Shown piece after piece: positions 1-32,204 of a stretch of DNA of 32,204 nt (position 1 is the stretch's first letter; the number at the start of each line of letters is the position of its first letter). The notes beneath the pieces are model-generated. The model was given only the letters and a program-made list of their open reading frames with translations. It ran no database searches and was not told the DNA's origin. Origin of the DNA: Amoebophilaceae bacterium (GTDB taxonomy: Bacteria; Bacteroidota; Bacteroidia; Cytophagales; Amoebophilaceae); contig JALOLY010000003.1 in assembly GCA_025455725.1 (NCBI GenBank), positions 1-32,204 on the forward strand, written 5' to 3'. The translations under genes and the position numbers were made by a program.

Positions 1-2807
1 TGGAAGAAAAATCGAGAGTCAAAATGATCCTCAAAGAGCTGACGTGTATTAAGCAGACCTGGCATAATGCTTACGTCTCCAACAGCACTAGTCTGATGGC
101 CCGATGATGGAGTCATGGTAGCAACATGGGCCTGGCCCCGCTGTTGGAAAAGCCATGCATAAAAAAATGTTTGGAACGCCGCTTTATTTCGTCTAAAAAC
201 TGTCCTATCAAACAAAAGGGGAATACTCTTTATCTTCTTCTCATCAAGGCCAGTCTTGTAGTCTAACACCCGAAAAACACCGGCTTTCCAATCCACTCGA
301 TCTATGATACCACGCAACCGTACACGCGTAGCTGGATCCAGATCAAAATCAAGATAAAGAGGTACCTGGCGGCCTACCTCGAGACCAATGAGTACGAAGG
401 GGGCATACGCCTGGTCAAGAACCAAGATTCTTTTCACTAACTTGGTCATAACGGCTTGAGCAATAGCATCACCGCCTTGCAAGGCTATCCATTGGTGCTG
501 ACCTGGGTGAAAAGTGCTGGCAAAAGTATTTTTCACTACAAGTTTTACGCCCTTTTGCAACACTTCCAGATCCTGGAGCTGCAGAGGCTGGCCCCGCTTT
601 TTCTTCATCAACGGTGTATACAGCCTTTCCATGACTGCATGCAAAAACCTACCAAAGACCAACGCATGGGTTGCCTGTTGGGGTGGCGCTGGAGATTGGA
701 GTCGTACAAGGTAATGGAAATAAAAACGCAGGCTACAGTCAAGGTACGTATTCAATGCAGATGGCGTCAAGTGCTGCCCCGTGCCGTCAGGCTGTAGTAT
801 AAACCTCCTCAGCTGCTGCCAGACTGATTCCTTTTTAGGGATCACAATAGGCTGGATCGTAGGTAGGTAAATGGGCTGAGCGATAGCCTTTTTTTTCAAA
901 GGCAACTTAGATTCATAGAGCAACTGCCAAAGGTAACGGCTCATCTCGCTCTGGTTGCCAGCTGCAGTTTTTGTGCTGTAGGTGATATACACCTGTCGGG
1001 CACGCTGAAGCAAGCGATAAAAATAATAGGCATACAAGGCCGCTTGGTGCTGGTCGGCTGTGGGTAAGCCATAGCCCTTACGAAGACTGTATGGGATAAA
1101 GGAAACTGAGCTAGTCTGTGCCGGAAAGTGGCCTTCGTTCATTCCCACAATGAAGACATGATCAAAATCTAAGTTGCGCGTAGCACGTATATCCAATACC
1201 TGAATGCCGTCTGGTGATTGTAGTCCCAAGGGAAGCCGAACAGACTGTACCAGCTGCCGAAGTAGTTGAAGCAATGCCTCGCCCTTGGTAAGGGGTGGTG
1301 TCAAAACCTCTTGAAGTCTGCCCAGCTGCCGCAAAAGTTGATGTAGCGCTACTTTTTCTAAAGAGTGTAAAGACACATCGGAGGCTTCTACACGAGATTT
1401 TACATACTCTACCACTTCTATCAGATACTGCAACAAGCAATCTTGGGAGCCCAAAACATTAAAAATTGTAGCATAAGGAGAATTTTCTTGGACCAGTGTA
1501 GCCTGATCCACATAACTATGCTTGGCTTCTTTGATACGGTTGATAGTAGCCTGTGCCAGAGCAACGTCCCAGCTCATTATGCACGGGTGGTTGAGCACAG
1601 ATAGCACATGCTGGGTAGCCCAGTAGCCTGAAGTAGATTGTTCTTGGGCAGCAGATTGCAGTACTAGTAGATGCTCGAGCAGGTGGTAGGTAGTCGTGTT
1701 TTTGAGCGGATAGCCTAGGTGGGTACTGACTTGGGTCATATTTAGAGCCAAAGCGTGCAGCACAGGCAAGAGTAAGGATTCGTTGGCCAGAACAATAGCT
1801 GTTCTCTGAGGCACAAAATCTGCACCTTGTGCCTCCATAAGAGCCTGTAGCTGGGCACCCATCACCTGGGCCTGTCCCACCTCAGACGCCACGGCTGTGA
1901 GATGAATCTCTTGAACACCATCGGAAAGTCGCTTAGGAAAGGTTTTGCCAAAACTGGCCTGGAAGTACGACTTTTTTTGATGTGCCCTCAAGTATACCCC
2001 TGCCTCTTGTTGCATATCTTCCATGTAGTAGGCATCCAAGTCCCAGCAAAATGATGTGGGTAAGTTTCTTTGGTACCAGGCCAATATTTTTTCTTTTACG
2101 GGTGTTAGCACATTAAACCCAGCAAAAACCCACTGACCACGTGGGACCGTCGTAGTGCCTGCTACCAAAGCCTCATAGGCTGCTCTATGGCACAGCCCCT
2201 GATAACCGGCACCCTGGTCCTGTAGACGCTTCTTAAAGTGTTGGTAGACTGCAGGAAGTAGCTTCCAGAGACCAAGGAATTCCTGCTGATGTGTCGATAG
2301 CCGTTGTTCAAAATTCTTCCAGAAAGACTGTATCGTGGCTCGTTGTGCTTCGGTCAGATAATCGTAAGATAGACTAAGCTCTTTTTGTTGGCTCAGGTCG
2401 GTAAAAAGATGATCAGCATCGACCAAGTACTTCTCGATGACATCCAAATCTTGAAGCAACACGCTCCCCCAAAAGTAAAATTGCTCAAAAGATTCTTCTC
2501 GTGGTTTTAATGCCTGAAAAGTCTGATAAAGCGTATGTGTTAACAGTAGGGTATTCGCTCGTTTAAGCGGACTAAGTTGCTGCATCAATGTTTCAATGCT
2601 TAGGACCTTAGGTGCCCAAGTGGGTTGAGACAAGTGAGCAGCCAGACAGCGCTTGAACACCTCCACTGCCCGCCAAGTGGGGAACACAACAGTTATCTCA
2701 TGAAAGCGATGGCGGTGCTGGGCATATAGCTCGGCTGCTAAGTCTTCTATAAAAGAGGTTGGTAAAGCCACGGGCAAGTAGGTCAGAAAACGAAATTGAT
2801 GCGCCAC
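1..2807 (-). CDS. AddB-like PD-(D/E)XK nuclease/helicase-like subunit, probable GTG start at 2807, 3' end truncated by the left window edge
   Basis: Minus-strand reading with codons in one register at several checked points: N-terminal FLTYLPVALPTSFIEDLAAELYAQHRHRFHEITVVFPTWRAVEVFKR; middle DFDHVFIVGMNEGHFPAQTSSVSFIPYSLRKGYGLPTADQHQAALYAYYFYRLLQRA (AddB-type); near the left edge RGIIDRVDWKAGVFRVLDYKTGLDEK (RecB-family nuclease motif). Missing from the ORF track because no stop lies in the window. Confidence 0.83.
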   Translation of the reverse strand, partial: MAHQFRFLTYLPVALPTSFIEDLAAELYAQHRHRFHEITVVFPTWRAVEVFKRCLAAHLSQPTWAPKVLSIETLMQQLSPLKRANTLLLTHTLYQTFQALKPREESFEQFYFWGSVLLQDLDVIEKYLVDADHLFTDLSQQKELSLSYDYLTEAQRATIQSFWKNFEQRLSTHQQEFLGLWKLLPAVYQHFKKRLQDQGAGYQGLCHRAAYEALVAGTTTVPRGQWVFAGFNVLTPVKEKILAWYQRNLPTSFCWDLDAYYMEDMQQEAGVYLRAHQKKSYFQASFGKTFPKRLSDGVQEIHLTAVASEVGQAQVMGAQLQALMEAQGADFVPQRTAIVLANESLLLPVLHALALNMTQVSTHLGYPLKNTTTYHLLEHLLVLQSAAQEQSTSGYWATQHVLSVLNHPCIMSWDVALAQATINRIKEAKHSYVDQATLVQENSPYATIFNVLGSQDCLLQYLIEVVEYVKSRVEASDVSLHSLEKVALHQLLRQLGRLQEVLTPPLTKGEALLQLLRQLVQSVRLPLGLQSPDGIQVLDIRATRNLDFDHVFIVGMNEGHFPAQTSSVSFIPYSLRKGYGLPTADQHQAALYAYYFYRLLQRARQVYITYSTKTAAGNQSEMSRYLWQLLYESKLPLKKKAIAQPIYLPTIQPIVIPKKESVWQQLRRFILQPDGTGQHLTPSALNTYLDCSLRFYFHYLVRLQSPAPPQQATHALVFGRFLHAVMERLYTPLMKKKRGQPLQLQDLEVLQKGVKLVVKNTFASTFHPGQHQWIALQGGDAIAQAVMTKLVKRILVLDQAYAPFVLIGLEVGRQVPLYLDFDLDPATRVRLRGIIDRVDWKAGVFRVLDYKTGLDEKKIKSIPLLFDRTVFRRNKAAFQTFFYAWLFQQRGQAHVATMTPSSGHQTSAVGDVSIMPGLLNTRQLFEDHFDSRFFF

Positions 2808-3259
2808 TTAAGGCAAGGTACCATCAAGAAAGTCAACCAACCAACAGTAACACTGGCTGTGCTCTGTCTTGCCCATCTAAGTGTAGTTTACTTCTGATTG
2901 AGCACTGCCGAGCAACACCTTTGCAACTCCTTTGCAGTAGGCTCGAGACCCGGGTTCCTAGCCACGAAAACAAAGAACAGCAAAGTCTTATAGCATCAAG
3001 ACCTTTGCATGGCATACTGAAACTTTTTCACAAAATATTGCAAATAAGGGCACTTTTAGTAGACCCGGGTTGTGGTCTACCAGGATATTACCCCCCTCAT
3101 CCCATGATCTAAAGGCAAATGCCAGGGACCCCAGACAGAGTAAATGTTGGCAGAAGAACAAGAAAGAGCAAGTTCTTTCACTAAATAGACGCCTTGATAG
3201 ATCAACTAAACTGTGTCTAAAAAAGAGCTTAGCAAGGTTTGTAAGCGCTCTGTTGAGGG

Positions 3260-3757
3260 TGCAGCGGGCAGGCCTGCCTATCATCCCCTGGTACTACTCA
3301 AGATGATGCTCCTACAAACCTTGGCATCATTTCCCTGACATGGGTGTAGAAGACATGGCCCATAATACTCTTGTCTGCTAGTTCCTTTTGTGGTTTACGC
3401 GTGGAAAACATCGTACCTGACCATGGCCCGCAAAGCTCGGGGAAAGTCCACTTATATGCTTGCGGGGTACCCCAACACCCCTCCCACCAAGAAAATGACG
3501 TCTAGCGTAGAGTGAGAAGTACGTTGGGTCAAAAAGAGAAGTAATCTCTAGTATGGCCACAAGCGTCATTACCTGGCAGCTGAAGACAAAGACTTAGTCT
3601 TAGTGGACACACTACCACTGCCAACGTACATGTTGGGCAGTGTATGGCATCCAGTCTTGATCAAGTAATCACTCCCTGCAGGTAGTCAGATCCTAGCAGA
3701 CAAAGGGTATTGTGCAGCCAAAAACGGTCAACTATTACGCCAGAGAGGTTATCAAGG
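3260..3757 (+). pseudogene. Degraded IS5-family-like transposase remnant (copy A)
   Basis: Nucleotide similarity to copy B at 10250-10750 (e.g. gcctgcctatcatcccctggtactactcaagatgatgctcctacaaacc versus gcctgcccatcatcccttggtgctattcaagatgatgctactacaaacc). Frame-broken fragments PLVLLKM-like, DMGVEDM and ADKGYCAAKNGQLLRQRGYQG resemble IS5-type DDE transposases. Confidence 0.7.
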
Positions 3758-4044: not shown

Positions 4045-5037
4045 CTATTTTCTGAAAACTAAGCTCGCTTTATCACTTTCCACACAAAGCGTCCCGATCT
4101 CACCGTGCGGAAACGCAAGATTAGGTGCTTCATGACCTATGGAAAATTGAAAGGCTACGGGATAATTGTAGCCAGCAACATGTTCCTGTATAATTCCCTC
4201 AGCACTCTTATTCATTGGGAGGGATGAAATGTCTTGCATATAGACCATCTTTCCTACAACAAGCCCCGCTAAATCTTTAAGCTTCCCGGCTCGTTTTAAC
4301 TGAACCATCATCCTGTCTAAAGCATAGAGATGCTCCCCAACCTCTTCAATAACCAGAATCTTATTCTTAGTATCGAGTGCCGATAGTGTCTCCATGTTAT
4401 TACAGATTAGTCCTAGATTACCTCCCACCACAGGCGCTGTTACTACACCCAGTCTATTCAATGCATTAGCAGGAGCCGTCAAATGGGCAGTACCCTCAAA
4501 GAGTAGCGTTCTTAAGCTGTCAATGGAAGCCTTATGTTGAGGATTTGAAAAAAGTATGGGCACTGCACCGTGTGCCGATACAAAACCCAGGTTATGTAGT
4601 CTTATATGTAAGGCAGTAATGTCACTAAAACCGATAACCCACTTGGGGTTTTTTAGAAAATGCGTAAAATCAAGTTGGTCTACAATGCGCGTGGTACCGT
4701 ATCCGCCTCTCAAAGAGATAACGGCCTTAATGGTCGGATCGTCAAGCGCCCACTGCATATCTTCGGCCCTTTGCGCATCTGACCCAGCAAATGCATTGCA
4801 GCTATCTACGCTTACATATTTACCCAACACCACTTCTAATCCCCAGGATTGGAAAATTTCGGTCGCTTTTTCCATTACCTTCTTTGACTCTTTGACCTTC
4901 GAAGCTGGGGCTACGATCGCTATCCTGTCTTTTTTTTTCAATAAGGGGGGGTGCGCAGGCACATCATGCTCTCTCGAAGACACAGTTCCGATACCGCCCA
5001 GAGAGAGTGCCGCAAATAGACAAAAGATTTTTTTCAT
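4045..5037 (-). CDS. S66-family LD-carboxypeptidase / MccF-like serine peptidase with predicted signal peptide
   Basis: N-terminal MKKIFCLFAALSLGGIGTVSS signal-like leader; RIAIVAPAS, SLRGGYGTTRIVDQLDF, nucleophile motif VIGFSDITALH, Glu motif LVIEEVGEHLYALDRMM, His motif SIGHEAPNLAFPHG. Confidence 0.88.
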   Translation of the reverse strand: MKKIFCLFAALSLGGIGTVSSREHDVPAHPPLLKKKDRIAIVAPASKVKESKKVMEKATEIFQSWGLEVVLGKYVSVDSCNAFAGSDAQRAEDMQWALDDPTIKAVISLRGGYGTTRIVDQLDFTHFLKNPKWVIGFSDITALHIRLHNLGFVSAHGAVPILFSNPQHKASIDSLRTLLFEGTAHLTAPANALNRLGVVTAPVVGGNLGLICNNMETLSALDTKNKILVIEEVGEHLYALDRMMVQLKRAGKLKDLAGLVVGKMVYMQDISSLPMNKSAEGIIQEHVAGYNYPVAFQFSIGHEAPNLAFPHGEIGTLCVESDKASLVFRK

Positions 5038-5154: not shown

Positions 5155-8100
5155 CTAGGCACACCTGGTGCATCTTTGCCGCAGCTCCTTAGCGATGAAC
5201 TCGAGACCTAAGTGGGTAGCGATAGGTACATAAAACTTTAGTGTTTCGTCGACCATCTTTTCCTGCTGCGTACGAGCAAGATGGCTTTCCATCATCCTTA
5301 TGTGATGTAGATGGTCTGCCAGCTTGACATAGAGCACACGTTTGTCTTTTTCTTCCACCAACTTTAGGATAATCTCTTGGTCAGATAATTGTATTTTTTT
5401 AAAGCTATTTAAGCGACTGTCTACAGAAGACACGCCTTCTACAATGCGTTTTACGACAGGATTAAAGTGCAAGGAAATGTAATGCGAAGATAGGCGCGTT
5501 GTATCGATGGTATCATGTAGTAGCGCTGCCAAGAGCGTATCGGCATCTCGCGTATAGGTCAAGAGAATACTGGCTACTGCAATCGGGTGTAGGTAATTGA
5601 GGGCTGCTGTATCCCTTTGGCCACCTACTTTTATCTGTTTGATAAGTTGTATGGCTTTTTCCAGAAGCTTTCGCTCCATAGGTGTCTCAGCAAGCACTTG
5701 CTGCACGAAGGCTTGCTCCACTGGCTGCACCGCCTCAGGGATCATCTCTGATGACGGAGTAACCTGGTATTGGTCCATCATAGGCGGGCGCACCGCCCGT
5801 ACATCCTCGGGAAAAACATACACCTGCGTCACCCCAGTGGCTGTTGGGATTATCTCAGCAGCCCCATAGTGGGCTGCTACAATTTGCTGATGGTAAGCAA
5901 GGGACAGCTCTCCCACATCTTGGATCCATGGCAGTGATACGTGATCTACAATACCTAAGTACCACTGTTTAATTCTCGGTGGGGTTATTTCTGTGGTTAT
6001 CATCACGCACAACGCCCGGACGCGCTTGATGTAATTTGGTATAGACATAATAGGATAGGCGAGTTGTGTGTCGTCGATATGTAATAAAACAGGTCTCTGG
6101 GTATTGGGGTATGCTTCGGCATAGGCTACCGCAGTGCGTAGTAATCTTCTAATTTTACTACGATCTCCTTGTAACAATTTTGTGCTTGCGTGGTGCTGTA
6201 AGATCACCTTGGTCGCTTGGTTGTGCTGGTATATTGTTCGCTGGACGTCCTGCCATAATACATCTAAATCTATACACTCTACAACCAGACGCATGGGTTC
6301 TCGTGCGAGATGAAATAGCTGCTGTAAATACCGGTTGCGAGTGTCCAATTCGTAGATGCGCTGTTCTAGAGCTGCGTTGCTAGCCATGAGCTGTGCTTTG
6401 GTGGGGTTTTGCAATGTGGTACGTTGTGATGTTGCCCATGATTCGGTACACCCCACTGCTTTGAGAGGACGTAGGCTAGCTTCCTGCTGCAGTTGTGCCT
6501 GGTGGCGCATGGTTGTCAAAAACATCTGACTAGTGAAGCTATTATCTTCTTTGAGCTGTGCATGAGAGATAACCAAACCTCGGTAGACTTGTTTCCCTTT
6601 CAAGGCTAAGCTGACAAAAAGAAGGACGCAATAGAGCATCTGTACGGATCCGAGTACACTCAAGGGCAGCACGGATCCTGTATAACGCGTAAAGAAAAAA
6701 ACTGCGGCATAGGTGCCCGAAGAAGCCAAAAAAATAGCTAGCGGCCAGTGTAGTAGTAAGACTGCCATCAAGAGATTCATCATCATGATCATCACTTGCA
6801 TGTGATGGTAGCGACTCATGATCACCAAGAGCGTGCCAACAAAGAAGAGGAGGGTGCCAATACCGAGTGGCCAAAAGAAGGCCATGAAGCGACTATTTTT
6901 CAATGTAGGCGGCCAGACAGGGAAAGTTAAGAAAGCTGTGGCACCCACGAGGACAGTACGATAAATGCTATCGTAAATCTGCTGGCAAGCTTTGGTCTCT
7001 GCTGCGCTAAGGGTATAGCAGGCAACGTAAGTAGCGGCAATGGTGTAAAGACCAAAGAAAAAGTAAAAGCCTTCGTTCTGGGGCAGGTTTTGTTGTAGAT
7101 AAGGATAGAGTTTGAAGTTTTTGATAGTCTTGAGACGCCATTGCCAGCGCTGTACCCGGGCTGCCCGCTCCAAAGCAAAAGGACTCGTAGGATCCAGCTT
7201 TTGCCAGCCGCCTGGCTCGCCCAGAAGATAATGTTGGCACAACATGGTCATGATGTTGGCTAGCAGAGCCGGGAAGAAGCTATGGACACTTTCAAAATAA
7301 AAGAGGCATGCTGCAGTGGCTGCTGATCCTATTCCCATGGACATGAGCACCACCCGCCTACTGGTCTGAAAGCCAAAGATGGCTAGGAGTATGGGGACGG
7401 CGACAATAGGTGTATAGAAGTTGGCAGCACTTCGGAGTATGTTTAACAAATCTTGAATACTGAGTGCTAGTGCTAGACTGAGCGTTCCGAGTACCAGTGT
7501 AGCCCACCGGGCTGTGTTGAGTGAGCTTTGCTTTTGTAAGCCAAGCGGGGGAAGAATGTCATTGGCTACAATGACCGCACAAGCATTTAACACCGAATCT
7601 GCCGTAGACATGGACAAAGCAATGACACCAATGCCTAAAAGCCCTTTAAATCCTGGATAGGTATACGTATCGACAATATGCCGCATAATCTTATCTGCTT
7701 CGGGCCCTGGCCGATCCACTAAGATCATCATGGCGATCCATAGCATGCATAGCTCTATCCCTAGACACACGATTGCGGCATAACCAAACGAGCGCTGTAT
7801 CTGCACTGTGTCACGCGCCATGACCACGCGTTGAAAGAGTTGTGGTTGTAGTATGGGTGTCATCAGGTAAGCCATAAATAAGAGAGCTTTCCCAGACTCA
7901 GGTGACCACTTCACCACATCTTTGAAAGAGAAAAGTGGGTTAGTTCGGAACATATGTGTTACCTGGGCAGGGTCTTGAAGATTATTCCAAATCGTCAATG
8001 CGAGTAGGGGGAGCAGTGTTCCAAAGGTGAAGAACTGGAGGACATCGGTGAAGGTAACTGCTTTGACACCACCCGAAAGGGAGTATAGGGTGATGATAGC

Positions 8101-8592
8101 GGCTACTATCGTAACGATCTCGGGTCCTTCGCAGTTGAATAAGATGGCCAATATGCTAGCAATTACCTGCAACTGCATGGCTATATAACTCGTTGACCTT
8201 AATACAGTAGCAATGCCGGCAATAACCTGCACAGTTTTGCCATATAACTTCCCGAGTGACTCAGGTACAGAAAGGTTATTGAGGAACCTGCCCATGCGCG
8301 GCCCTATGACATATCCCATGAGCAGGAGGTATACTGGGGTACCTATGATGTCTGGTATGACATAGTACAAGCCTTGTTTGTAGGTCTTCTCTAGATTGAT
8401 GAATAAAGCCCCCCCCGACATCCATGTGGCCACAATAGTGGCGGTCAGGATGGCAGTAGAGAACTGCTTGTCACCGACGGCAAATTCTCGAAATGATTGC
8501 TTTCCCCCTCTGTAGAAAAAACCTACGATAATATTGAGCAATAAAAAGACGACGAAAATAAAACTATCTATCGTAAGGGGTGGTAGGGCCAT
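5155..8592 (-). CDS. Multidomain fusion: sodium:solute symporter (SSS) N-terminus, additional TM helices, degenerate histidine-kinase-like region, C-terminal RelA/SpoT-type HD domain
   Basis: N-terminal SSS family (AVGDKQFSTAILTATIVATWMSGGALF, YSLSGGVKAVTFTDVLQF, LSMSTADSVLNACAVIVANDIL); GDRSKIRRLLRTAVAYAE resembles an HATPase N-box; C-terminal NYLHPIAVASILL..TLLAALLHDTIDTT..RIVEGVSSVDS..LYVKLADHLHHIRMM is SpoT-HD-like. Confidence 0.85.
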   Translation of the reverse strand: MALPPLTIDSFIFVVFLLLNIIVGFFYRGGKQSFREFAVGDKQFSTAILTATIVATWMSGGALFINLEKTYKQGLYYVIPDIIGTPVYLLLMGYVIGPRMGRFLNNLSVPESLGKLYGKTVQVIAGIATVLRSTSYIAMQLQVIASILAILFNCEGPEIVTIVAAIITLYSLSGGVKAVTFTDVLQFFTFGTLLPLLALTIWNNLQDPAQVTHMFRTNPLFSFKDVVKWSPESGKALLFMAYLMTPILQPQLFQRVVMARDTVQIQRSFGYAAIVCLGIELCMLWIAMMILVDRPGPEADKIMRHIVDTYTYPGFKGLLGIGVIALSMSTADSVLNACAVIVANDILPPLGLQKQSSLNTARWATLVLGTLSLALALSIQDLLNILRSAANFYTPIVAVPILLAIFGFQTSRRVVLMSMGIGSAATAACLFYFESVHSFFPALLANIMTMLCQHYLLGEPGGWQKLDPTSPFALERAARVQRWQWRLKTIKNFKLYPYLQQNLPQNEGFYFFFGLYTIAATYVACYTLSAAETKACQQIYDSIYRTVLVGATAFLTFPVWPPTLKNSRFMAFFWPLGIGTLLFFVGTLLVIMSRYHHMQVMIMMMNLLMAVLLLHWPLAIFLASSGTYAAVFFFTRYTGSVLPLSVLGSVQMLYCVLLFVSLALKGKQVYRGLVISHAQLKEDNSFTSQMFLTTMRHQAQLQQEASLRPLKAVGCTESWATSQRTTLQNPTKAQLMASNAALEQRIYELDTRNRYLQQLFHLAREPMRLVVECIDLDVLWQDVQRTIYQHNQATKVILQHHASTKLLQGDRSKIRRLLRTAVAYAEAYPNTQRPVLLHIDDTQLAYPIMSIPNYIKRVRALCVMITTEITPPRIKQWYLGIVDHVSLPWIQDVGELSLAYHQQIVAAHYGAAEIIPTATGVTQVYVFPEDVRAVRPPMMDQYQVTPSSEMIPEAVQPVEQAFVQQVLAETPMERKLLEKAIQLIKQIKVGGQRDTAALNYLHPIAVASILLTYTRDADTLLAALLHDTIDTTRLSSHYISLHFNPVVKRIVEGVSSVDSRLNSFKKIQLSDQEIILKLVEEKDKRVLYVKLADHLHHIRMMESHLARTQQEKMVDETLKFYVPIATHLGLEFIAKELRQRCTRCA

Positions 8593-30337: not shown

Positions 30338-30681
30338 TTCAAATATATGGATTACAGGACTCCGCCCATTAATTCACGGATATGATCGGTCTGTCGGTAA
30401 AAATACACCATAGGGACCGGTAATCCTTGGCTTGTCCAAAGAGCAGTTTACATCAAAACCCATGACATTGAAAGTGCTAAGTTGACGTGTGCCCAATAAC
30501 TTACATAGGCAACATGATCAAGGGAAGAAGGTTTTAGAAAACATAAGGTCAAAAAAGACGATATATCCACTCGCCGGGAGCATCTCTTTGCCCTACCGCA
30601 CAAAGGTGGTCATAAGCTCACAACGTGAAGCTATTTGTGTTTATACAAAATAATACACACATTACTGTGCCTTGGTCATGC

Positions 30682-30703
30682 AAGGTTGGCCATGGCTAAC
30701 CTT
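30682..30703. repeat. 22-bp near-perfect palindrome
   Basis: aaggttggccatggctaacctt; arms pair at 10 of 11 positions. Confidence 0.6.
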
Positions 30704-30724
30704 CCCGGGGCAGTTCGTTTGCAG

Positions 30725-30740
30725 GCCCCTGTTGAGGGGC
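30725..30740. repeat. Short GC-rich hairpin, 6-bp stem with 4-nt loop
   Basis: gcccct-gttg-aggggc. Confidence 0.55.
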
Positions 30741-30919
30741 TCAAGTGCCAGAATATCAAAGGTTCACGGATCTTGGTAGCGCGCACAACAACAGAACTTC
30801 GTGCCCAAGCCTCGTAGGGAGGTGCACTTTGCATCAAGCATTGCCTCCCTCACATACAATACAAGTGTTAGCGATCAACAAAGCAGTGTGATCCCCAACA
30901 CTGGTGACGCGAATGGGCT

Positions 30920-31056
30920 TGGGTACCAATACAGGCACCCGTTGTTGGGGGTTTTTCCTCCGGGGGGCTCAATGTCAACAACAACAACAATGACAACAAC
31001 AACAACGGCGTGGCTGGGCTCCGGAAATTCTGTAAGGCAAAGCCCACTAAGCCGCC
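30920..31056 (+). other. Candidate DGR template repeat (TR); core A-rich segment 30971-31006, outer boundaries approximate
   Basis: Plus strand ctcaatgtcaacaacaacaacaatgacaacaacaacaacggcgtggctgggctccgg. In frame: LNV-NNNN-N-D-NNNN-GVAGLRKF, i.e. 10 Asn (AAY) codons and 1 GAC, 21 adenines in 36 nt, followed by a GC-rich A-poor tail; adjacent to avd-like and RT genes. Confidence 0.72.
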
Positions 31057-31078
31057 CCTAATAGGCAGCTCAGTGGGC
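31042..31078. repeat. Inverted repeat / stem-loop at the 3' end of the candidate TR, overlapping the avd stop codon
   Basis: gcccactaagccgcc (31042-31056) and ggcagctcagtgggc (31064-31078), 13 of 15 positions pair, 7-nt loop cctaata. Confidence 0.7.
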
Positions 31079-31429
31079 AACGAACTTGAGCCACCCTCCC
31101 ACCATCTTACCAATCTCTTGCAGTAGGGTCTGCAACGCTAAGTATTGCTTGGGTGTGATGGTGTGTGTTTCTTTTGCCAGACGAATCAGCACCTTGAGCA
31201 AGTCCACGTCTTTGCTCATTTCATGGAGTGCCTGCATCCTCAACTCCCCTACCAGGTGGCCGGTACTGACGACCCGTTCTAGCAATGCAAGTGATAGGTT
31301 TTCACACCTTTGCCAAAGCGTATAGCGTTGCATCTTAGGAATCGTGCCATGGTAACCGTTGAGTGTCTTGTAGAGGTCATATACCTTGTGAAAGATAGGG
31401 ATGTCAAGCACAGAACGTTTTTGAGCCAT
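31070..31429 (-). CDS. avd: Avd-like DGR accessory protein (four-helix bundle, S23rRNA-IVP-like)
   Basis: IPIFHKVYDLYKTLNGYHGTIPKMQRYTLWQRCENLSLALLERV...KDVDLLKVLIRLAKETHTITPKQYLALQTLLQEIGKMVGGWLK matches the family pattern IPIFxKxYDLY..PKxxRYTLxxRxENL..DLLKxLIRLAK...YLxLQxLLQEIGxMxGGW. Confidence 0.87.
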   Translation of the reverse strand: MAQKRSVLDIPIFHKVYDLYKTLNGYHGTIPKMQRYTLWQRCENLSLALLERVVSTGHLVGELRMQALHEMSKDVDLLKVLIRLAKETHTITPKQYLALQTLLQEIGKMVGGWLKFVAH

Positions 31430-32204
31430 GAAAGTAGCGCGTTGTCTATTTGATCACATGGTTGCTGTTGACAATCTGCTGCTTGCTTGGCAGCACTTTA
31501 GGCGAGGTAAGCGCCAGCGGCAAGATGTTCAGTATTTTGAGCGGCATCTAGAAGACTTTATTTTCGATCTGCACGAAGACCTCACCACACTGCGTTATCA
31601 GCATGGACCTTACCAGCATTTTTATGTATTTGACCCGCAAAAGCGATACATCAGCAAAGCTTCTGTTAGGGACCGGCTCGTCCATCAAATGCTTTATGCT
31701 GCCCTTACGGAGGTTTTTGGTAAAACGTTCATCTTTCATTCTTTCTCCTGTCGTGTAGGCAAAGGAACCCATGCAGGAGTAGATCAGCTCCAGAAGATCC
31801 TAAGACAGGTAAGTCGCAATGGCACCCGCGCCTGCTTTGCCCTAAAAATGGACGTACAGCGCTTCTTTGATTCCATTGATCATGACCTACTCAAATCCCT
31901 CCTGTACGAACGCATACAAGACCACTGCGTACTAGCTATCGCCGACCGCATCATCGACAGCTTTGTGAGTAGCCCTAGCAACAGAGGACTCCCGCTGGGG
32001 AATGTGACCTCACAAATTTTTGCCAACGTGTATCTTCACCCGTTAGATCACTTCATCAAGCACACGCTGCGCCAAAAGTACTACTTACGATACTGCGATG
32101 ATTTTATCATGGTAGCGCACGAAAAGTCCCAGCTCACCGCACTCATCGAGCCCATCCGTAATTTTTTAGCACAAAGGCTACGACTGACACTGCATCCCCA
32201 AAAA
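31428..32204 (+). CDS. DGR-type reverse transcriptase, 3' end truncated by the right window edge
   Basis: Open frame from ATG 31428 to the window end: MKVARCLFDHMVAVDNLLLAWQHFRRGKRQRQDVQYFERHLED..FYVFDPQKRYISKASVRDRLVHQMLY..FSCRVGKGTHAGVDQLQ..CFALKMDVQRFFDSIDHDLL..GLPLGNVTSQIFANVYLHPLDHFIK..YYLRYCDDFIMVA..FLAQRLRLTLHPQK. The catalytic YCDD and the LGNxTSQ motif are present. Not in the ORF track because there is no in-window stop. Confidence 0.9.
   Translation, partial: MKVARCLFDHMVAVDNLLLAWQHFRRGKRQRQDVQYFERHLEDFIFDLHEDLTTLRYQHGPYQHFYVFDPQKRYISKASVRDRLVHQMLYAALTEVFGKTFIFHSFSCRVGKGTHAGVDQLQKILRQVSRNGTRACFALKMDVQRFFDSIDHDLLKSLLYERIQDHCVLAIADRIIDSFVSSPSNRGLPLGNVTSQIFANVYLHPLDHFIKHTLRQKYYLRYCDDFIMVAHEKSQLTALIEPIRNFLAQRLRLTLHPQK

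Follow-up and report, generated by a model that had tools for sequence, protein, structure and literature searches.

A chromosomal diversity-generating retroelement and its probable dispersed target genes in a 0.9 Mb Amoebophilaceae genome

The stretch of DNA analysed here (the window, 32,204 nucleotides of contig 5 in an Amoebophilaceae genome of 896 kb assembled as 58 contigs) carries a diversity-generating retroelement (DGR) at its right edge. Its parts follow one another, 5' to 3', as a leader, the core of a template repeat (TR), the accessory gene avd, and a reverse transcriptase (RT) frame that runs past the end of the contig:

30661-30940, plus strand: conserved leader, 90% identical to a cassette copy on contig 53
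30941-31030, plus strand: TR core with 10 AAY codons, encoding VVGGFSSGGLNVNNNNNDNNNNGVAGLRKF and matching variable repeats (VRs) on other contigs
31016-31030, plus strand: 3' end of the TR, putatively IMH*-like; in the alignment GGGCTCCGGAAATTC in the TR versus GGTCTCCGGAAGTTC or AGTCTCCGGAAGTTC in most close VRs
31042-31078, plus strand: predicted stable hairpin directly 3' of the TR (single-sequence fold)
31070-31429, minus strand: avd, the accessory gene (119 aa), on the strand opposite to TR and RT (PF22296, NF033474, PHROG 3206)
31428-32204, plus strand: first 259 aa of a DGR RT, open at the contig end, matching 8ub7_A and falling in the DGR clade

A preliminary description of this DNA had proposed a DGR from the TR, avd and RT; all three lie where it put them, and the system extends beyond what the window contains. 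The leader, part of which (30702-30818) is 81% identical to a sequence in a congener (G019:C36:4273-4391) that also adjoins an RT remnant, is probably the 5' part or the promoter of the TR RNA. No long coding frame surrounds the TR core. By analogy with the Bordetella phage BPP-1 element, the 3' end of the TR may play an IMH*-like role, the alignment giving GGCTCCGGAAATTC for the TR and GTCTCCGGAAGTTC as the form common to most close VRs. The hairpin that follows is a candidate structured spacer of the TR RNA, and the sole result of an Rfam search was a chance microRNA match on it. Downstream of the VRs, folding predicts a stem-loop in some cases in G019 (e.g. on its contig 3) and none that is common across the VRs of the genome itself. 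Within the assembled sequence no target adjoins the cassette.

The accessory gene, earlier called Avd-like, matches Pfam bAvd (PF22296, 8.9e-18), the PHROG "Avd protein of DGR" (PHROG 3206, 2.7e-17) and NCBIfam DivGenRetAVD (NF033474, 2.6e-20), the last at 72.7 bits, under the model cut-off of 80. What the preliminary description lacked is the strand: avd sits between TR and RT, opposite to both and divergent from the RT, and a single CATG forms the overlapping start codons of the two genes. Among the DGRs of phages and plasmids that we inspected, those in which avd is annotated have it ahead of the RT on the same strand. The antisense position is not unique to the present locus, as another genome of the order (G167:C377, about 186-1852) has avd and a DGR RT in the same head-to-head layout, their start codons overlapping, and the arrangement therefore recurs; an AAC-rich stretch downstream of that RT may be its TR. 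DGR cassettes have already been surveyed, and TR, VR and RT were reported in many different orders and orientations (PMC6642488). Elsewhere in the window (5155-8592, minus strand) lies the gene for a 1145-aa protein in which a sodium:solute symporter (SSF) domain is followed by a C-terminal HD_4 domain, an unusual fusion that may be sensor-like; a paralogue of almost equal length is found on contig 53 (4786-8226, plus strand).

The RT carries LGNVTSQ at 31995-32015, the motif on which its assignment to the DGR type had been based, and also YCDD at 32091-32102. Among solved structures, the RT of the BPP-1 DGR matches it best (8ub7_A, 3.3e-38), with group II RTs behind at 6e-16. We built a tree of 28 RTs, 19 of them DGR-type (the query, BPP-1, and 17 more from named phage and plasmid DGRs and from same-motif RTs of the order) and nine from group II or other RTs, and the query grouped with the DGR RTs at a support of 100/100, as the preliminary description had suggested it might, with no settled position inside that clade. 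That the enzyme is instead a group II intron, retron or antiviral RT, a reading that draws on a group II model being its best NCBIfam match, though far under the cut-off, is ruled out by the tree, which puts it outside the group II clade, and by the motif, LGNVTSQ standing in place of the absent QGxxxSP, and it sits poorly with the adjoining Avd and TR. A search for a DGR RT in the other 20 genomes of the family found distant RTs only, those included in the tree falling outside the DGR clade, and RT scans of genome-contig and viral-contig collections gave no close relative.

When the genome was searched with the TR DNA, matches appeared on contigs 14, 23, 25 and 16 (E 2e-19 to 4e-3), and the matching segments are the 3' ends of open reading frames in a large paralogous family. 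The TR candidate is no chance stretch, since VRs outside contig 5 match it with E values from 2e-19 to 2e-12. The ~210-aa module of the targets has 31 matches in the genome, the TR itself being one of them. Sixteen modules are protein-terminal with a TR-like tail, and they are spread over ten contigs other than contig 5 (three each on contigs 14 and 13, two each on 16 and 43, and one each on 23, 25, 32, 45, 22 and 9). Targets are built of one or two modules, with the VR in the last module only, and at the N-terminus of most full-length ones there is a signal peptide with a lipobox (e.g. LLLQSC, LCLQGC or LLLQAC). Several are cut by contig ends or apparently damaged: the target on contig 9 has a stop within the module, and the VR at C14:26230 has lost its stop codon.

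Mismatches to the TR core, which has 24 adenines and 66 other bases, fall preferentially on the adenines. In the VR at C14:26230, 11 of the 24 adenines and 4 of the 66 remaining bases are changed (p=4e-5); the figures are 11 and 5 for the VR of contig 23 (p=1e-4) and 13 and 9 for that of contig 25 (p=2e-4). Many matches with adenine-restricted mismatches exist genome-wide, the pattern that the preliminary description had proposed to look for. Every VR also has mismatches at other bases, 4-5 of 66 in the two freshest and 9-28 in older ones. Tested singly, seven terminal VRs reach p<0.001, and two internal modules reach p 0.01-0.03, so that the weaker VRs are inseparable from internal modules by the adenine test alone. 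Seven of the 16 VRs are therefore individually clear, the other nine being no clearer than internal control modules, and the cassette has left its marks on at least seven, perhaps sixteen, related genes for presumed surface proteins.

Codon position provides a stronger test. At the AAY codons, positions 1, 2 and 3 are altered in 70, 42 and 4% of cases in the five closest VRs (p=3e-11) and in 71, 51 and 19% across all 16 terminal VRs (p=7e-19), against 81, 69 and 64% in five internal modules (p=0.12), which have one near-constant sequence among themselves and are undiversified. Third positions are largely constant although selection on the protein would let them drift, which argues for adenine-directed copying from the TR. 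One might otherwise ascribe the C-terminal variation to positive selection or to recombination between paralogues, with no effect of a retroelement and the RT present by coincidence; recombination is likely in a target family this large and paralogous, and the variable part is a loop of the protein. We consider this very improbable, because in the closest VRs the third positions of variable codons are 96% conserved and positions 1 and 2 vary, the reverse of selection-driven divergence, because the internal modules lack this constancy, and because the congener G019 shows the same pattern, its six VRs of equal length having variable columns that read NNY with third bases nearly constant.

The target module is present in three congeners, and among 392 sampled genomes of the order it was not found outside the genus, bar weak matches in one other family member. 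A pattern search of G019 found no TR, and its RT consists of tail remnants only: an open C-terminal tail at G019:C36:4508-4732 (39.6 bits to a DGR RT tail profile), which adjoins a leader of the window's type, and further tails on contigs 55 and 27 of that genome, weaker or decayed. Each of these tails is found a short way downstream of a target gene, pointing towards it. The DGR probably predates the split of these species and decayed in at least one of them, where the targets persist, and an intact copy may have been lost from the G019 assembly. The targets of G019 are larger, with frames of 1050-1240 aa; one of them (G019:C36 4902-8450, minus strand) has an N-terminal lipobox-like signal and, ahead of the variable module, weakly matches a P-loop GTPase (E 5e-4, just below the cut-off), and it recalls the NTPase-linked targets of DGRs.

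The preliminary description had also called the RT and avd frames uninterrupted and taken this as a sign of recent function. Uninterrupted they are, as far as they can be read; the C-terminal part of the RT, which other DGR RTs suggest to be roughly 70-110 aa long, is absent from the assembly, and searches of the genome with the tails of other DGR RTs and with the congener tail did not find it. The cassette occurs a second time at the end of contig 53, where it is 90% identical in the leader and 96% in the RT. About 800 bases are gone from it, from within the TR to the middle of the RT, a deletion that took the TR core, avd and the N-terminus of the RT and left an open fused frame. Contigs 5 and 53 terminate at the same base of the RT and no other contig has its 3' end, so it was probably the 3' end shared by two copies that broke the assembly. 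The two RT copies differ by 10 silent and 7 coding changes (pN/pS 0.21; p=0.0015 for a neutral RT to collect this few coding changes); constraint thus seems to have acted on the RT during much of the period after the duplication. The cassette deletions on contig 53 (1-522, minus strand) and at G019:C36 (about 4430-4510) are separate events. Each runs from the 5' end of the TR, or from close by, to a point within the RT, and the TR is a possible hotspot of deletion.

Recent function is accordingly a divided matter: the mostly silent changes between the RT copies speak for it, and the 4-5 mismatches at 66 non-adenine bases in even the freshest VRs, the unread RT 3' end and the broken second copy speak against it. 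It is conceivable that the DGR is a fossil, its mechanism having made the VRs in the past and its RT now being truncated or silent. The deletion in the contig 53 copy would fit such a history, as would G019, which kept its targets beside RT tail remnants of which two are decayed, the missing RT 3' end, and the non-adenine mismatches carried by all VRs. Set against these are the open RT and avd frames of the window, the intact catalytic motifs, the low pN/pS, and the two-copy repeat that accounts for the missing 3' end; we regard a fossil as unlikely, if by no means negligible.

The best explanation, to which we assign a probability of about 0.9, is a chromosomal DGR that mutates dispersed target genes, and every defining feature of DGRs for which a decisive test was possible identifies the element as one. 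The RT, assisted by Avd, would copy a plus-strand TR transcript and make errors at its adenines; the resulting mutated cDNA would then act in trans, replacing the 3' ends (the VRs) of targets scattered over the genome, so that AAY codons of the TR would become NNY in the VRs. Since NNY is never a stop, about 6e11 variants (15^10) would be possible per VR. The system may be active at present, and the last transfers need not be recent, given the non-adenine mismatches of even the freshest VRs. Its purpose is probably to diversify the binding surface of proteins that would be displayed outside the cell, towards the host cell, phages or other microbes, and that would bind ligands there.

The target module has no sequence match in Pfam, PHROG or solved structures. 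It is modelled at a pLDDT of 94 and a pTM of 0.92, with the VR in the last strands and loop. Foldseek against the PDB gave no significant match (best E 0.47) and a viral fold search with the module nothing significant; several of the weak top PDB hits are C-type lectin (CLec) or FGE folds, which makes a divergent CLec fold likely. One relative was found outside the family, an F-box protein encoded on plasmid pPNK of Candidatus Protochlamydia naegleriophila (2779-3657, 31% identical), which has the module at its end and the GGFGIDGIRITKASNDHPRLGVAAMRKF terminus as in the targets; no DGR is annotated near its gene. Because an F-box points to action in a eukaryotic host, the module may be a general recognition domain common to amoeba-associated bacteria.

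Symbionts with genomes of about 0.9 Mb are usually thought to lose adaptation machinery, and the organism studied here presumably leads an endosymbiotic life. If its DGR serves many dispersed surface proteins, then a reduced symbiont keeps a dedicated protein-diversifying system, and its surface ligands are directly testable. It also adds a case of one TR that evidently served many remote targets, and the VRs of G019, which outlast the RT, point to machinery gained and lost around a lasting target family. We speculate, at somewhat less than even confidence, that in a genus of intracellular symbionts with reduced genomes one DGR is an engine of antigenic or ligand variation for at least ten surface proteins, and that this surface faces the eukaryotic host, since the recognition module is also fused to an F-box in an amoeba-infecting chlamydia. 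The unusual features are the reduced, endosymbiont-type genome, the many dispersed targets per TR, a target domain outside Pfam and PHROGs, and an antisense avd between TR and RT. In our literature search no paper made a relevant connection between DGRs and Cardinium or Amoebophilus.

Several known systems share parts of this design. The DGR of phage BPP-1 has a similar RT (3.3e-38 to 8ub7_A), Avd, an AAC-rich TR and a VR at the 3' end of its target; it differs in being phage-borne, in having its target adjoin the cassette and all genes on one strand, and in its target Mtd, which is unrelated in sequence. Legionella pneumophila, as presented where PMC4891356 cites Arambula 2013, is likewise an intracellular bacterium of eukaryotes that diversifies a surface lipoprotein, its DGR being a horizontally acquired genomic island, whereas in the present genome the targets are scattered along the chromosome and the cassette has core genes around it. 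Thiohalocapsa PB-PSB1 resembles our genome in its many targets and its duplicated, partly incomplete cassettes, and there is evidence of action in trans there; it has nine DGR loci for 15 targets, which are NTPase-linked defence sensors, whereas the present genome has one known intact TR and lipoprotein-like targets (PMC10907252). The closest known system is the DGR of Treponema denticola, with TvpA and other lipoprotein targets (PMC4891356). It too combines one TR and RT with several remote targets, many bearing lipoprotein signals, has an accessory gene between TR and RT, and has related strains that keep targets and have lost the core (PMC4891356). In the present genome avd is antisense, the target domain is unrelated in sequence and the genome is much smaller, and whereas the T. 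denticola DGR has up to seven targets (PMC4891356), here seven are clear and there may be up to 16.
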